A stretch of 55,187 nt of DNA from an uncultured Actinomycetes bacterium (GTDB lineage Bacteria > Actinomycetota > Actinomycetes > Nanopelagicales > Nanopelagicaceae). This document shows positions 801 to 32,173 of this stretch, piece after piece. Numbering within the stretch: position 1 is the first letter of the stretch; each line of letters begins with the position of its first letter. The DNA is taken from NCBI GenBank assembly GCA_903895995.1, contig CAITVX010000035.1, forward strand, positions 1 through 55,187. The letters are read 5' to 3'. Below the pieces are notes generated by a model. That model was not told the DNA's origin, made no database searches, and saw only the letters and a program-made list of their open reading frames with translations. A program made the translations under genes and the position numbers.

Positions 801-2840
801 ATGACTCTCGCTAAAGAAGCAATGGCCAACAACCCCTTCGCAACCCGCTCGACCCTCGAATACGAGATCCCACCATTCGCTCTCATCAAAGAAGAGCACT
901 ACCTGCCCGCTTTCTACGCCGGCTGCGAAGAACAACTCGCCGAAATCAAAGCAATTACAGACCAACCCACCGTCACATTCGAAAACACCATCGTCGCAAT
1001 GGAAAAATCCGGACAGCTACTATCCCGCGCACTCTTGGTCTTCTATAACAAATCATCGAGTGACACATCCCCATCACACGACGCCATCGAAGAAGAGATC
1101 GCACCCAAACTCTCTGCCCACCGCGACGCAATCTCACTCAACCCCGCACTCTTCGCACGAATCAAATCACTCTATGAAACCACAGCCACACTCAATCTCA
1201 ACGAAGAAGATGCATGGCTACTCCACAAGTATTACAACGACTTCATTCACGCCGGCGCCCACCTCTCCGACGATAAGAGAAAAACACTCACCGCGCTCAA
1301 CGAAGAAATCTCCAAGCTCGATGCCGAATTCGGCAAGCGCCTACTCACCGATATGAAAGACCTCGCCGTCGTAGTCGACACCGTAGAAGAACTCGATGGC
1401 CTCACCGAGAACCAGATCGCATCCTGCAAAGCCGGCGCCGAAGCCCGCGGGCTCACAGGCAAATACCTCATCAACACCATGAACTTCTCTGGCAACCCAC
1501 TCCTGAGCTCACTCACCAACCGAGCACTCCGCCAACGCATCATGGAAGCATCACTTCAAAAAGGTGATCGCAACAACCCCAACAACACCCAAGAGATCAT
1601 CCTCAAAGTAACAAAACTACGTGCCCAGAGAGCAGCGCTCTTCGGCTTTAAAAACCACGCCGAATACCAGACCAGCAACCAGACCGCGAAAAACCCAACA
1701 AATATCCACGCGATGCTCACCAAGATCGCAAAGAGCGCCCGCGCAAACGCAGAAAAAGAAGCCGCAGCACTCCAAACCAAAACCACAGAACCAATCCAAT
1801 CCTGGGACTGGGCTTTCTACACCGAGCAAATCCGCAAAGATAAATACAACCTCGACGTGGCTGCAATGCGCGAATACTTCGAACTCGAGACAGTGCTCCA
1901 TCAAGGCGTCTTCTTCGCCGCCACCAAACTATTTGGCATCACATTCAAAGAGCGCCCAGATATCACCACCTACCACCCAGAAGCCCGTGCATTCGAAGTC
2001 TTCAATGAAGATGGATCCAAACTCGGTCTCTTCATCGGCGATTTTTACACCCGCGACTCAAAGCGCGGTGGCGCCTGGATGAACAACCTTGTCGATCAAA
2101 ACCACCTCTTCGGCCAACTACCGGTGGTCTGCAACAACCTCAATATTCCTAAGCCACCAGCTGGTGAACCAACACTGATCACACTCGATGAAACCACCAC
2201 ACTCTTCCACGAATTCGGCCACGCACTCCATGGCCTCCTCTCCAACGTGAAGTACCCGCGCACATCAGGCACATCAGTTGAGAGAGATTTCGTTGAGTTC
2301 CCATCGCAAGTAAACGAGATGTGGATCCTCTGGCCAGAAGTTCTCGATAACTACGCCAAGCATTACATCACCGAAGAGAAATTCCCAGAAGAATGGACCA
2401 AAAGCCTGCAAGCATCAGAAACATTTAACCAAGGCCACGCCACCGCCAGCTATCTCGCTGCAGCAATCCTTGACCTCGCTTGGCACGAACTCACAGCAGA
2501 CCAAGATATAAAAGATGTCACAACCTTCGAAACCCAAGCCCTAAACAACTACGGCCTCAATTACGCCCCAGTCCCCACCCGCTACCGCTCCACTTACTTC
2601 TCCCACATATTCGCCGGCGGCTACAGCGCGGGCTATTACGGCTATATCTGGTCAGAGGTTTTAGATGCTGACACAGTCGAATGGTTTAAAGAATCAGGCG
2701 GACTGACCCGCAAAAACGGCGATCACTTCCGCACGCAACTCCTTTCACGAGGCGGATCCATCGACTCAATGCAGATGTTTAGAAACTTCAGAGGAAGGGA
2801 TGCGGTGACGGAACCTCTACTTAAGAGGCGAGGGATGTAA
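801..2840 (+). CDS. dcp: M3-family zinc oligopeptidase (Dcp/OpdA-like)
   Basis: A 679-residue cytoplasmic metallopeptidase of the thimet/oligopeptidase A/Dcp family, which finishes degradation of short peptides. The zinc site is clear: TLFHEFGHALHGLLS with HEFGH at about residues 470-474, and the third ligand region downstream (FVEFPSQVNEMW). Length fits the family (about 680). I keep the start at 801 because a TAAACT box lies 6 nt before it; a second ATG at 822 (MANNPFATRS) is an alternative. The gene interrupts the usual actinobacterial topA-tmk-holB order. Its coding strand is very rich in C and A (hand count of 1081-1140: C24 G10 A18 T8), the opposite of the next gene. Peptide versus dipeptide release cannot be decided from sequence. 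Confidence 0.92.
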   Translation: MTLAKEAMANNPFATRSTLEYEIPPFALIKEEHYLPAFYAGCEEQLAEIKAITDQPTVTFENTIVAMEKSGQLLSRALLVFYNKSSSDTSPSHDAIEEEIAPKLSAHRDAISLNPALFARIKSLYETTATLNLNEEDAWLLHKYYNDFIHAGAHLSDDKRKTLTALNEEISKLDAEFGKRLLTDMKDLAVVVDTVEELDGLTENQIASCKAGAEARGLTGKYLINTMNFSGNPLLSSLTNRALRQRIMEASLQKGDRNNPNNTQEIILKVTKLRAQRAALFGFKNHAEYQTSNQTAKNPTNIHAMLTKIAKSARANAEKEAAALQTKTTEPIQSWDWAFYTEQIRKDKYNLDVAAMREYFELETVLHQGVFFAATKLFGITFKERPDITTYHPEARAFEVFNEDGSKLGLFIGDFYTRDSKRGGAWMNNLVDQNHLFGQLPVVCNNLNIPKPPAGEPTLITLDETTTLFHEFGHALHGLLSNVKYPRTSGTSVERDFVEFPSQVNEMWILWPEVLDNYAKHYITEEKFPEEWTKSLQASETFNQGHATASYLAAAILDLAWHELTADQDIKDVTTFETQALNNYGLNYAPVPTRYRSTYFSHIFAGGYSAGYYGYIWSEVLDADTVEWFKESGGLTRKNGDHFRTQLLSRGGSIDSMQMFRNFRGRDAVTEPLLKRRGM

Positions 2841-21016: not shown

Positions 21017-21598
21017 TTAAACGAGGGCTCGGAGTCCAGCTAAGGCAAAAGTAGTTGCGCTCTGGATTTCGAGCTCTGCATCATTTCCGGCATCGATCCG
21101 GACAGATGCAGCATCAGTAACGCTCTGCAGGAATGCAGCAGCAGCCATCGGTTCCTTAATTCCAGTTTCAGTGAGCGCTTTACGAAGCGGAGCCATCATC
21201 TTGCGGTGGCCGAGTGCAATCTCTTCTTTGCGATAGTCAGGTGCCTGAATCGTATTGAGTGATTTCACGAGCATATGGCGACCATCTGCAACATAGCGAA
21301 GGCCTTCTGCAATCCACTGTTCGATCTGTTCAAAGGGATCTGTGACATCTTTAATGGCTACAGCGAGGCGATCGGTGTAGTAATCGAGCTCTTCAATAAC
21401 TAAATCAGCAACGAGATCGGCAGAGCTCTCAAAGTATTCATAGACAGATGAGCGCGCGAGGCCCGCTTTTGCAGCGACTGCTGCGACTGTAATTGCGCTA
21501 GCGCCTTCATTCATAGCGAGTTCAAGCGCAGCAGCCATCAATTGCTGACGGCGAAGTTCGCGGTGAGCTACAACTGAAGGGGCTTGAATCTTTGGCAC
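21017..21598 (-). CDS. TetR-family transcriptional regulator
   Basis: 193 residues from GTG 21598, chosen because minus-strand CATAAT-TCCAAG directly precedes it; a TTG at 21625 is possible but lies upstream of that -10 box. The N-terminal helix-turn-helix is typical of TetR (RRQQLMAAALELAMNEGASAITVAAVAAKAGLARSS region, then VYEYFESSADLVADLV). Its own -10 and start codon lie wholly inside the left copy of a 47-bp direct repeat. The ligand is unknown; it may regulate the adjacent heme genes or the YdcZ transporter that probably once stood next to it. Confidence 0.88.
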   Translation of the reverse strand: MPKIQAPSVVAHRELRRQQLMAAALELAMNEGASAITVAAVAAKAGLARSSVYEYFESSADLVADLVIEELDYYTDRLAVAIKDVTDPFEQIEQWIAEGLRYVADGRHMLVKSLNTIQAPDYRKEEIALGHRKMMAPLRKALTETGIKEPMAAAAFLQSVTDAASVRIDAGNDAELEIQSATTFALAGLRALV

Positions 21599-21635
21599 CT
21601 TGGAATTATGCCTTGCGCTTCTCAAAATAGCGACT
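21589..21635. repeat. 47-bp direct repeat, left copy
   Basis: Identical over 47 bp to 31236-31282, same orientation. It contains the tetR start and -10 box and, read on the minus strand, the last nine complete codons and stop of a YdcZ C-terminus (SRYFEKRKA). Just outside the repeat the left copy reads CTTGTA where the right copy has CTCGTC, both coding Leu-Val, so it looks like a remnant of a related ydcZ allele. Confidence 0.9.
21605..21610 (-). promoter_or_regulatory. -10 box CATAAT, leaderless start of tetR
   Basis: Minus-strand CATAAT-TCCAAG-GTG. In the right-hand copy of the repeat the TAA within this box is the stop codon of the YdcZ transporter gene, which points to the ancestral arrangement ydcZ-tetR. 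Confidence 0.6.
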
Positions 21636-21984
21636 TACAAGAGTGGTCGCTCACACCAACGCCTCCACTTGGTCTAGTTCACACCTCGTTGAGAGCTACA
21701 AAGCTAAGTGGTGCGGTGGTCAATGGACCGGCACAAGATCCTTTGCTGGAATACAAAGTGGCGCACGTTGGCGGCGAGCTTTTCGTTTTCAACGAAGTTT
21801 TACTCAGAAGTAAGGCCTTTTACGCTCAAATTCTTCTCAGTGGGGTGCCGATAGGCCCCCATATCGCAATCGATGCTCAATAAAATAGGGTGAGAAAAAA
21901 GGGTTATCCCCGCTTGAAGGCGCGTACCCTTAGAGGGGCCGCTGACCGTTGGATGGCCGGCGCTTTTTTTTGGGGGGGGCTGTC
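21636..21984. other. Gene-free 5' region of the giant surface-protein gene
   Basis: No credible gene was found here; a plus-strand frame starting at TTG 21584 begins in the repeat, has no start signal and resembles no known family. The region has a TGGGG/CCCCA hairpin (21841-21860), a -10-like TAAAAT (21881-21886), an AAGGGT/ACCCTT dyad (21899-21931) and the T8G8 tract. It may be a structured promoter/leader. Confidence 0.35.
21964..21979 (+). repeat. T8G8 homopolymer tract at the 5' end of the giant gene
   Basis: Eight T (21964-21971) followed by eight G (21972-21979), the longest mononucleotide runs noticed in the window. It lies between possible start codons TTG 21949 and ATG 21953 and the start GTG 21985. 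Adding one base would put ATG 21953 in frame with the gene; at the present length ATG 21953 is out of frame and TTG 21949 is in frame. This is the layout expected for slipped-strand phase variation, though it is not proven. Confidence 0.6.
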
Positions 21985-24900
21985 GTGGCACCTTCCGGCG
22001 TACGCAAAAGAATTGCGACGTTTTTATCTTCTTCACTTATTTTTGGGATGAGCTTATTTGTAGCTACCACCCAAGCAGGAGCAGTCTCTACCGTCACATC
22101 TGGGTCGACTGTCACCAATACTTATTCCAATACCGCGGCAGTTGAATATTTTACGGTCCCGGCAAATGTCACCTCGATCACGATTACTTTGAAAGGTGCT
22201 GAAGGCGGTCTCGGTGGCACAGATTCTGCTGGACGACCACCTGCAGGTGGTTACCAAGGTTTGGTATCAGGAACAATCTCTGTAACACCGGGGCAAGTCC
22301 TATCTGTTGGTGTTGGTAGCGGAGGAAAAGACTCAACTGCTGCAACAGTGTGCACGGCTGGAACTCAAGACTGGAGAGTAGCTGATACAAAGAATGCTGT
22401 TGGCGGAACAAATCCATTTGGTGGGTATGGTGGCGGTTTAGGAGGGTCAACTGGCCCTGATGGTTGTTCAGGTTATGGCGGCGCTGGCGGCGCTGCATCT
22501 GTCATTCGAATTGGTGCAAGTAACAATGATGCATCTGTAGCAACAATTGTTGCCGGTGGTTCTGGTGGTTCTGGTGGTTCGGGCCAATTCCCAGAAACAG
22601 TTGGCCAACTCTCTCTTTCAGCATTTGCGGCAAGAACAGATTCCACATCAACAAGTGGACAGCCTGGCCTTTATACGTCTTACGCCTGTTATAACGGAAT
22701 TCTTCCTAATTCCTTCCCTACTAGATCAGAGTCAAAACCGACATCCACTATGGGATATCGCATTACATCAGATCAACGATGTGATGGCGGTGGCGGTGCT
22801 GGTGGCGGTGGCGGTGCACAAGGTGGCGCGCAAGGTGTATTGCAATATGGAGCAGGCGTCTCTCGCCCTGCACCAGAATTTTTTGGTCACGGCGCGAATC
22901 CGGGACAAAATTCTACGAATAGTTTGAGTGGCCTAACTGCCAGCTATCAGTATTACGCAGATAACAATGCCAACGGCTCGGCTGTCATTAGCTACTCAAG
23001 CGGAGTTCCAAACCCACCCACGACAGTAGCCGGGAATCCCGGGGATAAGCTCGTCAATCTATATTGGACTGCGCCTGTAAACACTGGAAATAGTGCAATA
23101 ACTGGGTACCAAGTCCAATATTCGGTGAGCCCATACACCTCGTGGACCACGGCCTCTGGGTGCACTGGAATAGGCACCACCTGCACAATCTCATCCTTGA
23201 CCAATAGCACGGGCTATAAATTCCAAGTCGCGGCTATTAACGCGATTGGCACTGGCTCTTATTCATCTCCATCTGTGGTGATCACACCCGTTGCAGTGCC
23301 AACTGCTCCAACTGCACTTGTGGCGACCCCTAGTGATGGAACGATTTCGATCGCATTCACTGCGGCGACATCATCAATTTCGATTACAGGTTATGACTAT
23401 TCAATCAATAGTGGGTCTACGTGGAGTGCAAGTGGTTCAACATCAACACCAGTGTTGATCACAGGTTTGAGTAATGGCCTCGCATACACGGTAATACTTC
23501 GTGCTAATAACGCATCTGGAGCTGGTGCAGCATCAACCTCGGTGACCTCGACGCCACTGACAATCCCGGGTGCGCCGACAATTACAAGTGTTACCTCTGG
23601 TTCGAGCGGGACCTCCTTGATCGTTGCTTTCGTTGCAGGAAGCAATGGCGGATCGACGATTACCTCGTATCAATATGCAATCAGTACTGGTGCCAATAGT
23701 TCTAACTTTGGAACGCCAGTAGCAATTACAGGTACATCATCTCCATTTACAATTTCAGGTTTAAGCAATGGAACCTATTACACAGTCGAGTTGAGAGCTG
23801 TGAATACAGCAGGCAATGGACCATTTGCAGTGTTCAACAACAGCGTCACCCTTGCAGCACCAAATGCTCCGGTTCTTTCATCTCTTGTTGCCGGGAACCA
23901 GAGTATTCAGGTGAATTACACACCATACACATCATCAACGAACGGCGGATCCGCGATAACTAGCATCTCCTATTCATTAGATGCTGGAACTACATGGGTT
24001 AGCGCAGGAACTCTTACAAACCCATTTACTATCTCTGGGCTTACTAACGGAACTTCGTATGCAGTTTTGTTGAAGGCAACAAATGGAATAGGAAGTAGTT
24101 CGAACTCTAATTCACTTTCTGCGATACCAATTACTGTTCCAGGTGTGCCAACACAACTCAGTGTTACAGCCGCCCCTACATCGGCAGTCGTCTCATGGAC
24201 CGCCCCCGTATCTACCGGTGGTTCAGCTATAACAGCCTATACAGCCACTGCCTATAGCGCTTTAACTGGCGGGATTGCAGTAAAGAGTTGCACCACATCT
24301 GGGGCTCTTACGTGCACAATCACCGCCCTCACAAATGATACAAATTATTATGTTTCTGTCTTAGCAACTAATGCGCCTGCGGGAAATGGAGCTGAAGCAT
24401 CACCACGTATTTCTGTGATACCAGCTGCGCTACCAGGGGCACCAACTATTGGAACAATCACAGCAGGTAGCGCCTATCTCACCGTTCCCTTCACCGCAGG
24501 ATCAGCAGATACTCAAAATCCAATAACAAATTATCAATATTCAACCAATGCTGGTGTCTCATGGACAAATACCAATTCACTTCTCTCACCATTCACAATC
24601 TCTGGACTTACCAATGGAACTTCTTATAGTGTGATTTTGCGAGCAGTAAGTAATTTAGGTAACGGAACCACATCAAGCGCTGTGAGCGCAACCCCATATA
24701 CATTCCCAGATTCTGTGAATCCTGCAACTATCTCGTATGCCGCGGCCGTGAAGCAGGTGAATGCTTCATGGACTGCACCATTTAATGGTGGCTCACAGAT
24801 TCAAAATTATTACGTCTCTGTATTTAACGCATCTGTTGGTGGCACGCAGCTCACCGCTAATTCATGTACATCCACGGGCACTCCTGCAGCACCATCGTGT

Positions 24901-27900
24901 TTGATTACAGGCTTGACTGATGGAACGACATATTGGATTTCAATTCAGCCATATAACGCGGCAGGTTACGGAAACCGATCAGATCCTCGTGTTTCAGTTT
25001 TATCTGGAGTGAGTACAACAGTTGGTCTCACTTCGACTGCATCAACTATTAATTACAATGGGTCGGTCACATTAACGGCGACCGTTTCGACGGCATCTGG
25101 CACTCCAACAGGCACGATGAACTTCATGTCAGATGGCACAACAATCACTGGCTGTGGAACCCAGGCGATTACTTCACGGGTTGCGACATGCGTTGCAACT
25201 GGATTTACAGTTGGATCACATTCGCTCACCGCTGCCTACTCTGGTAGTTCCTCATATTCTTCTTCACTGAGTGGGACGACCGGGCTGAGCGTTAATGCCC
25301 TCGCCCAAACGATTACTTTTGGGGCCTTATCTGCAAATTCGCTGACTGCAAGCCCTATTTCTATATCGGCGACAGCTTCTTCTCTGCTGAGCGTCACCTT
25401 TACTTCATCGACTCCGAGCGTCTGTACCGTTTCTGGTACTTCGGTCACTCTCGCGGCAACCGGTACATGTTCAATCAATGCAGACCAAGCAGGCAGCGCC
25501 ACATATGCGAGCGCTCCCACGGTCCCTCAATCATTTACGGTGAATCCTGCTGCCCCAGGAATCTCCACACCTAGTATTTCAGGGACCGCGCAAGTTGGAA
25601 CTTCATTAAGTGTAAATGCCTTATCCACAACAGGAGTGGTTACGACAACGGGCTATGTGTGGAAAAAATCTGCGACATCTGGTGGCACTTACTCTCCAAT
25701 ATCAGGTGCGATTTCAAGTAGTTATACACCAAACGCAGCTGATGCTTCTTATTATCTAGAAGTGGTTGTAACCGTATCTAATGCCGGTGGAAGTGCAACG
25801 GCTACTTCACTGCCAACTAGTGCAGTGGCATTGATTCCGCAAACTGGATTAGCCATCACATCTTTGAGTGGAACTTTTGGAACTTCCCTTCCACTCGTCA
25901 CAAGTGGTGGTAATGGTTCTGGAACCGTTACTTTCTCGACCCCAACAACTGGGTGCTCAATAATCGGTGGCGCGCTCACTGTTACGGCACCAAAGAGTTG
26001 TTCTGTTACTGCGGTTAAAGATGCCCAAGGAAATTATGCAAGTGCTTCAACGACAAGTTCTGTTGTGATTGGGAAAGCAGCGTCCACGGTTGTCCTTACT
26101 CTTCCAAATAATTCTATCTACGCAAACCTCAACAAAACTGTTGTGATTAGCGCAACCACAAATACACCTGGTGTCGTCTCATTCTTGCTCGATGGAGCGG
26201 CGATGTCGGGTTGCTCTTCCATCTCTACCAGCGCCAATGTAGCTACATGTAGTTGGACTCCTGCTGTTGCACCAAGCAATGCAGCACTTACAGCAACTTT
26301 CACACCAACAGATTCAGTGGATTATCTGACTGCAACTGGTTCCTTGGCAGTCGCAGTAGTTGGTAGTTCTTTGGCGGGTGTGAACCCTAGTGATTTAACA
26401 AACCTAGCCAGCATCACAACGATTGATAATGTTACTAATCGAACCCTAACTGCTGATTCAGCTGATACACATTTAATACTGACCGTTCCAGGGGGCTCAC
26501 TTCCAATCGGATCACAAGTAACAATCTATTTAAATGCAAACTTTACGACTGCTAGAGCTGCAATTGCTTCAAGTAATTACCTACTCAATTTCATTATTGC
26601 GTGGAATGCTTCTGATAACACTGTTCCTTCAGCGTCGAAACCATTGACCTTGGCGATTACAAATGCAAGCATCTCTAAAGGAATGGCTGCATATGCAATT
26701 ATCGGAGGAGTTGCCACCTCAATAGGTAAAGCGACTGTTGCTGGTTCGATGACTGTGGACTTAGCACAGGATCCACTTGTAGTTGTTGCACCTACGGTGC
26801 CAGATGCTCCAACAGTTGTGACTGCCACATCAGGAGGAAACGGAAGTTCTACAGTAAGTTGGGTAGCACCTGATAACGACGGAGGAAAATCCATCTCTGG
26901 TTATACGGTAACTGCAAGTGGCAGTGGTGGCCAATCATGCACCACTTTTGGTAGCTCGCGATCATGTGCTGTGAGTGGCTTAACAAACGGAACCGCTTAT
27001 ACATTTACTGTTACGGCTCAAAATGTAGTTGGAACCAGCACTCCAAGTAGCCAATCTGCCGCAATCACTCCTAGCGACCCACCAGTTATCACTACACCTA
27101 GTTCTGGACTTACCGGAACCTACAATTCACCATTCTCTCTCTCGTTCTTTGCCACAAGTACAGCGGCTATTTCAAGTTATGCAGTGACTTCAGGCGGATC
27201 AGCATTGAGTGCACTCGGACTTTCACTCAACACAAATAGCGGAGTAATCACAGGCACACCTTCATCAATAGGAAATGCCACAATTGTCGTGCAAGTAACA
27301 GATGGAAATAATCAAAGTGCTGTTACATCCTCGTTTACCATCTCGATTGCCCCAGCCGCCTCAAGTATTACTTCATTCACTGTCCCATCGATGACTTATG
27401 GAAGTGCCGTCACATTAAGTGCTACTTCGAGTGTGGCAGGGCAAATAACCTTTAATGTAGGTGGATCCGCAATCTCTGGCTGTAGCAATGTAGTTGAAAA
27501 TGGCTCTAGAACTGCTACTTGTTCGTTCACGCCTACTAGTACCAACCTACTTAGCTTTACTGTGAATTTCACTCCTACATCTAGCAACTATTCAGCACTC
27601 ACAGGAGTCGGCACAACGACTTCGACTCCATCGCATGCTTCAAGCAGTACGAGTTTTACGATATCCAATGCTTCTCCAACCTTCGGTACCCAAATCACTC
27701 TCACGGCAGTAGTAACGACCGGGGCTACAGGAACTGTGCAATTTGTTGATGGCTCCAACAATGTTCTCTGCACTACTGGCAATCTTTCATCTGGCTCTGC
27801 AAGTTGTTTATGGACCCCTGACAATGTGACGACATATTCCGTGAAGGCCGTTTATGCGGGTGATAGCAACTATCTTAGCTCGGAATCAAGTGCCTCTAAT

Positions 27901-30900
27901 GTTGTAGTCGTTGGGGCGACCCTCCTTGCCCCAACCTCAATATCTGGTGCGGGTTCGAGCACAACCGAACTGACAGTTACCTTCACACAAGTCACACATG
28001 CGTCCTCGACAACTTTGAATCTCTATTCATCATCAACAGGCGGAAGTGCAGCTCAAACAATTGCAAACTTCACATCGGGGTCAACGGTAAGTGAGCTCAC
28101 AGCCAGCACTACGTATTACATCACTTTACAGAGTATCGGTTCTGGAAATTATGCGTCGAGCGATGAATCGTCACCACGAACATCGATCACAACCCTTGCC
28201 GCAGCAGTTACGCCAGTAATCGTCACTGCGCCATCTTCTACAACGGTAGTACTTGGTAATTCTGTTACTTTCACAGTATCGGCCACACGCGCAGACTCGG
28301 GCGTGCTCTCCTATCAATGGAAATTCAATGGCTTGGCTATTTCTGGGGCAACTAGCGCTACCTACACCTTCACGCCGCCATCAACGGCGAGCAGTGGTTC
28401 GTACACTGTTGACGTCACTAATACTTTAAACGCAACTGTCGCTGCCATCACATCAAGTGCAGCAATACTGAATGTGACAGGACCGGTTTCAATCGCTGCC
28501 CCAGCGACGGGCCTTACAGGAACATTTGGAGTGCCATATTCACTCGCCGTTGCGGGCGGCGGAGGAACTGCTCCACTTGTTTACTCATTGAATTCAGGGA
28601 CCCTTCCTGCCGGGCTAGCTTTAGATCCAAATACAGGATCTATTACAGGAACTCCAACAGCGGCCGCACCTTCAGGGCAGAGTATCACTGTAAAAGTTAC
28701 CGATCACAGTAACTCCACTGCAACTACTGCGCTCTTCACGATCGTCATTAACCTGGCAAACCAAGCGTTACTGGCATTCACTATTTCACCAGATAATGCT
28801 CCGTCAAATGGGAGTGCATTTACTCGTGCAGTGTCCCCAACTCTAACAAGTACGGGATCAGGTTCAGGATCTGTCACATATTCTGTGACATCCGGGACAG
28901 CGACAAATTGCGCGATCAGCAGCAGTACCTTGATTGGCACATTAAGTGCAGATACTTCTGGTACTTGTTTAATTACTGCTACTAAAGCAGGAGATACTAA
29001 CTATCTTGCTGCTACAAGCAGCGCAGTAACATTTATATTCACAAAGGCAGCGCAGAGTGCGTTAATAATTACCTCAACAAGTGGCAGCTTTGGTTCGCCC
29101 CTGGCATTAACAACATCGGGGGGAAGTGGAACTGGATCAGTATCTTTCGCAGTTGATACATCAGGTTGTCGTATTTCTGGTTCGACATTAAACGCTGATA
29201 TTTCTACAACCTGTTATGTAACGGCGACCAAGAGTGGTGACACCTACTATTTAAGTCAGGTCTCTTCACCCACTGGCGTGAATATTGGAATTGCTTCCCT
29301 TAATACTCCTGTTATAACGTCAGTGACTTCTGATGGGACAACTTCTGGATTAATTGTGGACTTTACTTCGGATCCGGCTTCATCTGGGTTTACTGCTTAT
29401 GTATATAGCCAGGCGGTCGGCGGTAGCGCACTTATTATTGTGCCTGCGTTTGCGACTGGGGAGACAATCACGGGTCTTAGTGCAAATACTACTTATTACA
29501 TTGGTGTGGTTGCAGGCGGTGGAGGCAGCTACGGTGACAGCGCAGAGTCGAATCGAGGAGTAGCTTCTACACTTGCTCGGGCAAGCGCTCCGGTGATCGA
29601 TCTACAGCCGGTTGCTATTAATGTAACAGTTGGTCAGCAAGAGTCGATGACTGTCACAGCTCATAGCACTGATTCCGGAACTCTCTCATACCAATGGAGT
29701 TTTGCGGGTAGCACTTTGCCCGGAGCAACAGGGGCGACGTACTCGTTTATCACCACATCATCACTTAACTCCGGTAACTATTATGTCGTTGTCACAAACA
29801 CGAAGAATGGTAGTTCAGCTTCAACCACATCCAATATTGCAGTTCTTGTCGTATCGGGACCGGTTCAAATCGCGACCCCATCTGCAGGACTTACAGCAAC
29901 GCTTGGATTCCCATACTCTCTAGCCCTTAACGCTTCAGGCGGAAGTGCGCCATTGAGGTACAGCATTGCTTCTGGTCAAAGTGCATTGACCTCTGCTGGC
30001 TTATCGCTCAATACGGCGACTGGCTTAATAAGTGGAACCCTCCTTGAGAGCGGAACAGTAACTTCTTCCATCCGAGTTACTGACGCAAATGGAGTGACAG
30101 CGACCACTAATCCATTCTCCATCACTGTCGATTTAGATCCAGATGCGACTATCCCAACATTCTCTACCCCTGTCGCAACTGCAGATGGCTTCACCGTGAA
30201 CGTAACTAATTACAGCGTGGCCTTCACGGCAACGGCAAGCGTAAGTATGGGCACAATTACCTCTGCAGTACCAGTTGGCTCTATCTGGCTTCTAACAGTT
30301 TCTGGTTTACTGGAAACGCAAACAGCAACGGTTACGGTAACAAATAGTGCGGTTGGTTACGTGAGTGAGTCTGCTTCAGTCACAGCTGGCCCACGCAGTG
30401 TGCCTACTCCACCCACACCAATACCAGATCCGGTGCAGCGATCATTCATTACATCGCTCTCTCCAACATTTGCAGTCGAAGGTGATTCACCGATTGTTGT
30501 GATTACTGGTGGATTTGTAGAGAAGATAGTTAATATTGATGTCGGTAGTAAGCGTCTTGAGCAGTTCTCGTGGATACAGACTCCGACTACATTAACCTTC
30601 ACAATCCCGTTCCGCGTACCTGGAAGTTATGCGATTCAGTTGTACAACGGAGCGGTACCTGTGCTTGCAGCTCAAATATTTGTTATTAACAAATTTGTTC
30701 CTATTCAACCAGTTATCACACCAGTTATCACACCAGTTATCGCACCGGTTGTGCCTACACCGGTTGTGCCTACGCCGATCGTCACTGTTCCAATCGCCCC
30801 CGTTCCAGTGGTGCCAGCTCCACAACCAACTGTTGCTCCTGTGCCGGTGCCAACTCATAACACGCAACCAACTTCAATTATGAAGAAGATCTCAACAGTG

Positions 30901-31206
30901 CAATTTGCATTGAACACTTATTACCTCAACGCAGCAGCCAAGGCGACGCTTCAAAAAGTTGCAGCAATCATTATGCAATCCCCGAATAAGGCTGTATTGA
31001 TCTATGGCAATACCGATATCCAAAAGGGAGTGGACAACGTCTGGCTCTCACATCAAAGAGCGATTTCAGCATTCACGTACATTCGAACATTCTTGAGTGG
31101 CACGACGATCAAACTTGGTTGGTTTGCGGCGACAAAACCAGCAGTCCTAGGGAACAGCCAAGCTGCCTATGCAAAAAATCGACGAGTCGAAATCTGGGTC
31201 AATTAA
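21985..31206 (+). CDS. Giant secreted surface protein: Gly-rich, FN3/Ig repeats, OmpA-like C-terminus
   Basis: About 3,073 residues from GTG 21985 (3,085 from TTG 21949). I prefer the GTG because it places VRKRIATFLSSSLIFGM directly as a signal peptide. Approximate order, numbered from TTG: glycine-rich domain 80-340 (GGGGAGGGGGAQGG); about seven fibronectin-III-like repeats 350-1015; Big3-type Ig repeats 1020-1600; another FN3 about 1615; putative-Ig repeats with (S/T)xGLT(G/A)T(Y/F/L) at 1715, 2180 and 2640; an IPT/TIG-like domain about 2830-2915; a Pro-Val-Thr linker; and an OmpA-like peptidoglycan-binding domain 2978-3085 ending NRRVEIWVN. Probably a long cell-wall-attached adhesin. It is the only gene in the repeat-bounded segment. 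Confidence 0.85.
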   Translation: MAPSGVRKRIATFLSSSLIFGMSLFVATTQAGAVSTVTSGSTVTNTYSNTAAVEYFTVPANVTSITITLKGAEGGLGGTDSAGRPPAGGYQGLVSGTISVTPGQVLSVGVGSGGKDSTAATVCTAGTQDWRVADTKNAVGGTNPFGGYGGGLGGSTGPDGCSGYGGAGGAASVIRIGASNNDASVATIVAGGSGGSGGSGQFPETVGQLSLSAFAARTDSTSTSGQPGLYTSYACYNGILPNSFPTRSESKPTSTMGYRITSDQRCDGGGGAGGGGGAQGGAQGVLQYGAGVSRPAPEFFGHGANPGQNSTNSLSGLTASYQYYADNNANGSAVISYSSGVPNPPTTVAGNPGDKLVNLYWTAPVNTGNSAITGYQVQYSVSPYTSWTTASGCTGIGTTCTISSLTNSTGYKFQVAAINAIGTGSYSSPSVVITPVAVPTAPTALVATPSDGTISIAFTAATSSISITGYDYSINSGSTWSASGSTSTPVLITGLSNGLAYTVILRANNASGAGAASTSVTSTPLTIPGAPTITSVTSGSSGTSLIVAFVAGSNGGSTITSYQYAISTGANSSNFGTPVAITGTSSPFTISGLSNGTYYTVELRAVNTAGNGPFAVFNNSVTLAAPNAPVLSSLVAGNQSIQVNYTPYTSSTNGGSAITSISYSLDAGTTWVSAGTLTNPFTISGLTNGTSYAVLLKATNGIGSSSNSNSLSAIPITVPGVPTQLSVTAAPTSAVVSWTAPVSTGGSAITAYTATAYSALTGGIAVKSCTTSGALTCTITALTNDTNYYVSVLATNAPAGNGAEASPRISVIPAALPGAPTIGTITAGSAYLTVPFTAGSADTQNPITNYQYSTNAGVSWTNTNSLLSPFTISGLTNGTSYSVILRAVSNLGNGTTSSAVSATPYTFPDSVNPATISYAAAVKQVNASWTAPFNGGSQIQNYYVSVFNASVGGTQLTANSCTSTGTPAAPSCLITGLTDGTTYWISIQPYNAAGYGNRSDPRVSVLSGVSTTVGLTSTASTINYNGSVTLTATVSTASGTPTGTMNFMSDGTTITGCGTQAITSRVATCVATGFTVGSHSLTAAYSGSSSYSSSLSGTTGLSVNALAQTITFGALSANSLTASPISISATASSLLSVTFTSSTPSVCTVSGTSVTLAATGTCSINADQAGSATYASAPTVPQSFTVNPAAPGISTPSISGTAQVGTSLSVNALSTTGVVTTTGYVWKKSATSGGTYSPISGAISSSYTPNAADASYYLEVVVTVSNAGGSATATSLPTSAVALIPQTGLAITSLSGTFGTSLPLVTSGGNGSGTVTFSTPTTGCSIIGGALTVTAPKSCSVTAVKDAQGNYASASTTSSVVIGKAASTVVLTLPNNSIYANLNKTVVISATTNTPGVVSFLLDGAAMSGCSSISTSANVATCSWTPAVAPSNAALTATFTPTDSVDYLTATGSLAVAVVGSSLAGVNPSDLTNLASITTIDNVTNRTLTADSADTHLILTVPGGSLPIGSQVTIYLNANFTTARAAIASSNYLLNFIIAWNASDNTVPSASKPLTLAITNASISKGMAAYAIIGGVATSIGKATVAGSMTVDLAQDPLVVVAPTVPDAPTVVTATSGGNGSSTVSWVAPDNDGGKSISGYTVTASGSGGQSCTTFGSSRSCAVSGLTNGTAYTFTVTAQNVVGTSTPSSQSAAITPSDPPVITTPSSGLTGTYNSPFSLSFFATSTAAISSYAVTSGGSALSALGLSLNTNSGVITGTPSSIGNATIVVQVTDGNNQSAVTSSFTISIAPAASSITSFTVPSMTYGSAVTLSATSSVAGQITFNVGGSAISGCSNVVENGSRTATCSFTPTSTNLLSFTVNFTPTSSNYSALTGVGTTTSTPSHASSSTSFTISNASPTFGTQITLTAVVTTGATGTVQFVDGSNNVLCTTGNLSSGSASCLWTPDNVTTYSVKAVYAGDSNYLSSESSASNVVVVGATLLAPTSISGAGSSTTELTVTFTQVTHASSTTLNLYSSSTGGSAAQTIANFTSGSTVSELTASTTYYITLQSIGSGNYASSDESSPRTSITTLAAAVTPVIVTAPSSTTVVLGNSVTFTVSATRADSGVLSYQWKFNGLAISGATSATYTFTPPSTASSGSYTVDVTNTLNATVAAITSSAAILNVTGPVSIAAPATGLTGTFGVPYSLAVAGGGGTAPLVYSLNSGTLPAGLALDPNTGSITGTPTAAAPSGQSITVKVTDHSNSTATTALFTIVINLANQALLAFTISPDNAPSNGSAFTRAVSPTLTSTGSGSGSVTYSVTSGTATNCAISSSTLIGTLSADTSGTCLITATKAGDTNYLAATSSAVTFIFTKAAQSALIITSTSGSFGSPLALTTSGGSGTGSVSFAVDTSGCRISGSTLNADISTTCYVTATKSGDTYYLSQVSSPTGVNIGIASLNTPVITSVTSDGTTSGLIVDFTSDPASSGFTAYVYSQAVGGSALIIVPAFATGETITGLSANTTYYIGVVAGGGGSYGDSAESNRGVASTLARASAPVIDLQPVAINVTVGQQESMTVTAHSTDSGTLSYQWSFAGSTLPGATGATYSFITTSSLNSGNYYVVVTNTKNGSSASTTSNIAVLVVSGPVQIATPSAGLTATLGFPYSLALNASGGSAPLRYSIASGQSALTSAGLSLNTATGLISGTLLESGTVTSSIRVTDANGVTATTNPFSITVDLDPDATIPTFSTPVATADGFTVNVTNYSVAFTATASVSMGTITSAVPVGSIWLLTVSGLLETQTATVTVTNSAVGYVSESASVTAGPRSVPTPPTPIPDPVQRSFITSLSPTFAVEGDSPIVVITGGFVEKIVNIDVGSKRLEQFSWIQTPTTLTFTIPFRVPGSYAIQLYNGAVPVLAAQIFVINKFVPIQPVITPVITPVIAPVVPTPVVPTPIVTVPIAPVPVVPAPQPTVAPVPVPTHNTQPTSIMKKISTVQFALNTYYLNAAAKATLQKVAAIIMQSPNKAVLIYGNTDIQKGVDNVWLSHQRAISAFTYIRTFLSGTTIKLGWFAATKPAVLGNSQAAYAKNRRVEIWVN
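30709..30774 (+). repeat. Tandem repeats in the proline linker of the giant gene
   Basis: Three 12-bp units of CCAGTTATCACA (the third with G for A) at 30709-30744, then two 15-bp units CCGGTTGTGCCTAC(A/G) at 30745-30774. They encode PVIT and PVVPT units just before the OmpA-like domain, and copy number could vary without a frameshift. Confidence 0.85.
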
Positions 31207-31235: not shown

Positions 31236-31282
31236 TCTTTGGCACCTTGGAATTATGCCTTGCGCTTCTCAAAATAGCGACT
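31236..31282. repeat. 47-bp direct repeat, right copy
   Basis: Identical to 21589-21635. This copy is the genuine 3' end of the YdcZ gene plus 17 bp beyond its stop. It also carries an orphan copy of the tetR -10 box and GTG, which here would read only a six-codon frame (V-P-K-T-W-A-stop). Confidence 0.9.
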
Positions 31283-32173
31283 GACGAGGATCGATCCTAG
31301 AGTCATGAATACGCCTGTAACGAGATATCCGCTCAAGGTGGTGTTCGCAGCAGGCGCTAACCAGTCGAGAAGAAGAGCCCCTATGAGTTGGCCAGTAACG
31401 CTTCCGAGGACAAAGTTCAAGATTCCCATGTGCTTCACAGCAAAGGCAGATGTAGCGATGAAGATAACGCCGATCGGTCCACCGAGATAGATCCACGGAT
31501 TACTTGGCAGGTGCCCGATGCTTCCACCGTTACTCAAGTTAAATGCAAGTGCAATTGCGAGAACGAAAGTTCCCATTAAGAAGTTTAAGAATGCTGTCGC
31601 AAGAGGGCGTGTAGCTACAACATTGACGCGGCCATTAAATGCTTGCTGGAATGAGATAACAACTCCAACTATCAGCGTTATAACGACTGCAAGAGCAGAG
31701 AAGGTTGCATGGGCTAAATCTGGCAAGACTGCAATAGTGACTGCAAAGAGAGTCATCACCGCAGCAAATATTCTTGGGATAGTGATGTGCTTTTTGCCAG
31801 CAGGACCAATTCCTAATTTATCTACGAGAAGTGAAGCAACTGTCTGCCCACCAACTGTTGCAATTGTAAATATTGCGACACCAAGTTTTGGAACAGTGAT
31901 CGATTGAGTTGCAACAAAGAAGCCGCCACCCATTCCACCAATAATCTCCCAGCGCTTCAAGCGACCAGATTGCACTGCCTTCCAAATGTTGCGAAGTCCC
32001 TGACGCTCTACCTTTAAGCCAAAGCAGAGAATGAAGAGGACGATCCAACCACTACCAAAGGAGATGATTGCAGCAGCTAAACCATTATGAATATCTTTAG
32101 AGAGCTGACCATTAAGGCGTGACTGAATGGCTGTGAGCGCTCCGACAAAGACTGCCAGTAGTGGATATATCAC
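31253..32173 (-). CDS. YdcZ-family (DMT superfamily) membrane transporter
   Basis: 306 residues made of two homologous halves of about 150 residues, each with four to five hydrophobic helices, the layout of tandem DUF606/YdcZ proteins. The first half has SRLNGQLSKDIHNGLAAAI and the second QQAFNGRVNVVATRPLATA, the paired N-G motifs of this family. It starts at GTG 32173, overlapping the LCP stop as TAGTG. Its last codons lie in the right 47-bp repeat. Substrate unknown. Confidence 0.82.
   Translation of the reverse strand: MIYPLLAVFVGALTAIQSRLNGQLSKDIHNGLAAAIISFGSGWIVLFILCFGLKVERQGLRNIWKAVQSGRLKRWEIIGGMGGGFFVATQSITVPKLGVAIFTIATVGGQTVASLLVDKLGIGPAGKKHITIPRIFAAVMTLFAVTIAVLPDLAHATFSALAVVITLIVGVVISFQQAFNGRVNVVATRPLATAFLNFLMGTFVLAIALAFNLSNGGSIGHLPSNPWIYLGGPIGVIFIATSAFAVKHMGILNFVLGSVTGQLIGALLLDWLAPAANTTLSGYLVTGVFMTLGSILVSRYFEKRKA

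Follow-up and report, generated by a model that had tools for sequence, protein, structure and literature searches.

What does a run of eight T followed directly by eight G do in front of a gene for a giant surface protein? The window analyzed here, a stretch of 55,187 nucleotides from an uncultured actinobacterium, carries such a tract (T8 at 21964-21971 and G8 at 21972-21979; coordinates refer to the plus strand unless stated otherwise) directly upstream of a 3073-aa reading frame starting at GTG 21985. An earlier note on this DNA proposed that changes in tract length could bring an upstream ATG or TTG into or out of frame and thereby phase-vary the protein, or else, if translation starts at the GTG, that the tract lies in the leader and tunes expression. 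Here, we weigh these options against each other and against the possibility that the tract is simply a stable sequence.

A rare double homopolymer ahead of a giant adhesin-like gene

The run of eight T and eight G is present exactly as the earlier note described it, and it is exceptional. T8G8 occurs a single time in the 1,357,352-base genome (G000), and no other start site there has a T8 directly next to a G8. Runs of at least seven G are found in three places of the genome (on either strand) and runs of at least eight T at five sites, far fewer than the approximately 25 G8 and 39 T8 runs expected from base composition alone; this genome is thus strongly depleted in long homopolymers of G and T. 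In 32 congeneric genomes, T7G7 was found at two sites, namely the adhesin leader of the window and a homologous leader in one other genome (G011). The tract is a real observation and more than chance, and, as is typical of contingency loci, it is far longer than the background and sits at the start of a gene.

This rarity counts against the plainest rival explanation, in which the tract is an ordinary and stable sequence, with G8 acting as a strong Shine-Dalgarno sequence and T8 as a spacer or terminator tail, and with no meaningful variation in length. On the other hand, the same rival gains from the wider survey of the genus. Of the 22 distinct runs of at least eight G that were inspected in 15 genomes, most are intergenic or at other unrelated sites, and surface genes are not systematically associated with the G8-G10 tracts of the genus. 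The tract is also absent from other giant adhesins: where the 5' end of a relative's giant surface gene is readable, it shows G4-G6 stretches and nothing comparable at the start codon. These runs and genes thus gave no genus-wide set of adhesins under G-tract control. A partial parallel was observed in G044 (contig positions ~843-858, minus strand), where the ATG of a LuxR-like regulator is immediately preceded by A8G8, another two-run homopolymer at the ribosome-binding position; the neighboring gene encodes a TasA-like secreted protein (both names are read from the sequences only).

The reading frame downstream of the tract (21985-31206) encodes a secreted adhesin-like protein with a signal peptide (VAPSGVRKRIATFLSSSLIFGMSLFVATTQAGA), a Gly-rich region, fn3 and Ig-like repeats, and a C-terminal OmpA-like (peptidoglycan-binding) domain that is related to Pal. 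Because of the fn3/Ig-like repeats and the OmpA-like domain, the protein is probably exported and held on the peptidoglycan, and we infer a role in adhesion. The gene is divergent from a gene for a TetR-family regulator (21017-21598, minus strand), and the leader and the adhesin gene are together enclosed by a 53-nt direct repeat, whose left copy (21589-21641, tetR start / ydcZ end) and right copy (31236-31288) are identical at 51 of the 53 positions. In four congeners (G012, G017, G043, and G015) the two flanking genes, ydcZ-like and tetR, are direct neighbors and no adhesin gene separates them; the block of leader and adhesin therefore looks like an insertion. A search for a phage origin of the region gave no match. 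The homologous copy in G011 (contig CAILXX010000021.1, uncultured actinobacterium, positions 1-1131) lies at the contig end and extends from tetR through the leader to codon 22 of the adhesin. It occupies a different locus, next to genes whose sequences suggest a role in haem biosynthesis, and G011 retains its own ydcZ-tetR pair elsewhere.

Start codon, promoter, and leader

Whether the tract can act on the reading frame depends on where translation starts. GTG 21985 opens a good, typical signal peptide, and G8, which ends 5 nt before it, is a probable Shine-Dalgarno-like ribosome-binding site: its predicted pairing with the anti-Shine-Dalgarno sequence (-11.1 kcal/mol) is the second strongest among 39 starts in the window, calculated with a generic anti-Shine-Dalgarno sequence because the species' own 16S is not in the assembly. 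GTG 21985 is thus the most likely start of the adhesin. Since its frame lies wholly downstream of the tract, a change in tract length would be unable to shift it.

The competing view is that translation starts upstream, at TTG 21949 or, after a length change, at ATG 21953 or GTG 21890, so that tract length would set the frame of the adhesin. The arithmetic behind it is correct, as TTG 21949 (36 nt upstream of GTG 21985) is in frame, ATG 21953 (32 nt upstream) is out of frame, and one additional base in the tract swaps the two. Upstream frames do cross the tract, including an overlapping frame of 53 codons (start GTG 21890, stop 22051), which contains ATG 21953 and continues into the signal-peptide region, but which is probably no gene. 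Furthermore, bifidobacterial pilus genes are known to switch through an intragenic G-tract (PMC9187656). However, TTG 21949 and ATG 21953 both lie within a hairpin and are preceded only by a distant GAGGGG (10 nt before the TTG and 14 nt before the ATG), a start in the hairpin would place approximately 12 extra residues before the signal peptide, and GTG 21985 has a far better ribosome-binding site and a frame that is independent of the tract. The frame switch suggested by the earlier note is for these reasons very unlikely.

The tract is probably transcribed. A TANNNT hexamer ending exactly 6 nt before the start codon is present at 10 of 38 genes in the window, which suggests that about a quarter of them have leaderless transcripts. 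The adhesin gene has no such hexamer at GTG 21985; its best -10-like hexamers lie instead approximately 95-105 nt before the GTG, and a leader is therefore to be expected. These hexamers, the overlapping TAAAAT (21881-21886) and TAGGGT (21886-21891), are the two top scorers of the region 21626-21990 under a -10 profile built from 11 apparently leaderless genes of the window. The transcript is thus likely to start at approximately 21893-21898 and to have a 5' leader of approximately 90 nt that contains the tract.

The DNA upstream of this putative promoter contains apparent remnants of two genes. Positions 21707-21799 resemble the C-terminal end of a Rieske iron-sulphur protein (translated matches to nine congeneric loci, 37-55% identity; the name comes from a CHGS motif in one match). 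A 99-aa open reading frame at 21584-21883 matches this Rieske C-terminal stretch only and no Pfam family, and it was rejected as a real gene. Positions 21819-21876 resemble the promoter and first codons of a thymidylate-kinase fusion gene, with 75-77% DNA identity to the genes of three congeners (G017, G012, and G003) and an ATA in place of the ATG, and they also align with the window's own copy of that gene at 2909. A candidate sigma-28-type promoter at GCCGATAG (21847) was dropped, since it falls in this remnant. Moreover, the palindrome TTCGTT-TTC-AACGAA (21782-21796), found among the loci compared in the G000 and G011 leaders only, may be an operator for the divergent TetR regulator.

Directly before the tract, a hairpin (CGCTGACCG-TTGGA-TGGCCGGCG, 21940-21962, with one A-C mismatch) is predicted from folding and is followed by a C and T8, which may thus represent the U-tract of a terminator-like element. 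This arrangement raises the possibility of a transcription attenuator, in which the hairpin and T8 would end most transcripts within the leader and the number of T, or a factor or alternative fold, would set the read-through. The genome offers precedents for T8 in the role of a terminator tail, since two of the four other T8 sites come after strong hairpins (-20.6 and -22.0 kcal/mol). The stem in the adhesin leader is weaker, though; folded with its T8 tail it reaches -9.4 kcal/mol, a moderate stability that 15 of 200 shuffled sequences equalled, and it contains the mismatch. The leader as a whole folded no better than shuffled sequence, comparison with the Rfam covariance models matched no known regulatory RNA family (one chance-level match fell near the leader), and an alternative fold receives no covariation support from the one near-identical relative. 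Attenuation as the main function of the tract is hence improbable.

The reading that we prefer, to which we assign a probability of roughly one half, is that the tract lies in a short 5' untranslated leader and acts as an expression dial rather than a frame switch. Transcription would start near 21893-21898, ahead of the tract; the hairpin and T8 would form a weak intrinsic-terminator-like element; and G8 would serve as the Shine-Dalgarno sequence for GTG 21985. Replication would probably slip in the tract at some rate, given that neither of the two known mismatch-repair systems is detectable (see below), and would leave the reading frame of GTG 21985 untouched. A change in length would then alter ribosome binding through the pairing of G8, the spacing, and local folding, and possibly also the read-through at T8. 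In the folding and pairing calculation, which is a single-sequence prediction with a generic anti-Shine-Dalgarno sequence, the number of G had an effect: going from G8 to G9 lowered the opening cost from 8.9 to 5.9 kcal/mol and strengthened the pairing from -11.1 to -13.8 kcal/mol. The number of T had little predicted effect on accessibility or pairing. If the tract varies, tuning of translation, and perhaps of attenuation, is thus more likely than a frame switch. Among the options of the earlier note, the leader placement fits best, with G8 as the Shine-Dalgarno sequence and -10-like hexamers upstream, the promoter and the pairing both being predictions.

Length variation and mismatch repair

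An expression dial requires that the tract changes in length. When the tract was searched as a pattern allowing a variable length of 0-20 bases, the G011 copy was the only one recovered from the genome collection, viral contigs gave no match, and in all DNA compared the pattern was confined to the G000 and G011 loci. The tract of G011, the sole other known copy, is likewise T8G8, an identity that speaks for the stable-sequence explanation. Its weight is limited by the history of the two copies. Their 1,131 aligned bases contain 40 substitutions and one A6/A7 indel, but this divergence is patchy: a stretch of 434 bases (21618-22051) contains a single substitution and the indel, whereas the tetR-side stretches differ by approximately 10%. 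The pattern suggests that the leader was recently recombined or transferred, and the equal length of the tracts therefore says little against variability. For the same reason, the strong conservation of the leader was not used as proof of function, as recent transfer explains it. It should also be kept in mind that a short-read consensus can be off by one at homopolymers. The flanking repeat and the apparent passage of the leader into a second species suggest that the surface protein travels along with its control region.

Searches with MutS_V and NucS_C, for which known genomes served as positive controls, gave no match in this 99.94% complete genome, which thus apparently lacks detectable forms of both known mismatch-repair systems (MutS and NucS). 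Instability of the tract is therefore plausible, because slippage errors may stay uncorrected, and the expectation of some slippage in such a genome weakens the stable-sequence explanation. Absence of both systems would make homopolymers mutation hotspots, which could explain their depletion. Based on its position and this apparent repair deficit, the tract is a good candidate for an expression-tuning site. Considering the identical copy and the genus-wide survey on the one side, and the depletion, the uniqueness of the site, and the expected slippage on the other, we regard an ordinary stable sequence as a serious possibility, with about one chance in three, but as less favored than the dial. 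A more elaborate version of the expression dial combines all elements, i.e., a mobile giant-adhesin module in a streamlined genome without MutS or NucS, in which the homopolymer joins a Shine-Dalgarno sequence to a terminator U-tract and slippage at this one site tunes both translation and attenuation with the frame unchanged; this full combination is rather doubtful.

Homopolymer control in other Actinobacteria

If the tract varies, it would represent a dial that sets the expression of a giant surface protein without touching its reading frame, and a contingency control that has survived in a small genome where other long runs of G or T are scarce. The earlier note knew of no described case in this lineage. 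A search of the open-access literature for homopolymer control in freshwater Actinobacteria likewise found nothing relevant, although close precedents exist in other Actinobacteria.

In Bifidobacterium breve, slippage in the G-tracts of sortase-pilus genes was experimentally shown to act as an intragenic frameshift ON/OFF switch (PMC9187656). Both cases concern a G-tract at an actinobacterial surface adhesin, with control by slippage shown in B. breve and proposed here; the tract of the window, however, lies outside the likely coding region. In Cutibacterium (Propionibacterium) acnes, 54 homopolymeric tracts are variable between 90 genomes, including those of dermatan-sulphate adhesins (PMC4746626). 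Here the likeness lies in G/C homopolymers that occupy the 5'UTR or the beginning of the coding sequence in surface-protein genes of Actinobacteria, whereas the present case comprises one tract of equal length in two genomes.

A further parallel is the espR 5'UTR of M. tuberculosis, in which a homopolymer of seven G is found and one inserted G is reported to raise translation through a changed UTR structure (PMC11898584). Both are G homopolymers of an actinobacterium, located in the 5'UTR of espR and in the predicted leader of the adhesin gene. The espR tract is located at the transcript start, 144 bp upstream, and is variable across many isolates (PMC11898584). In the adhesin leader, by contrast, the tract has the same length in two genomes, and the G-run itself occupies the Shine-Dalgarno position, beside a T-run.
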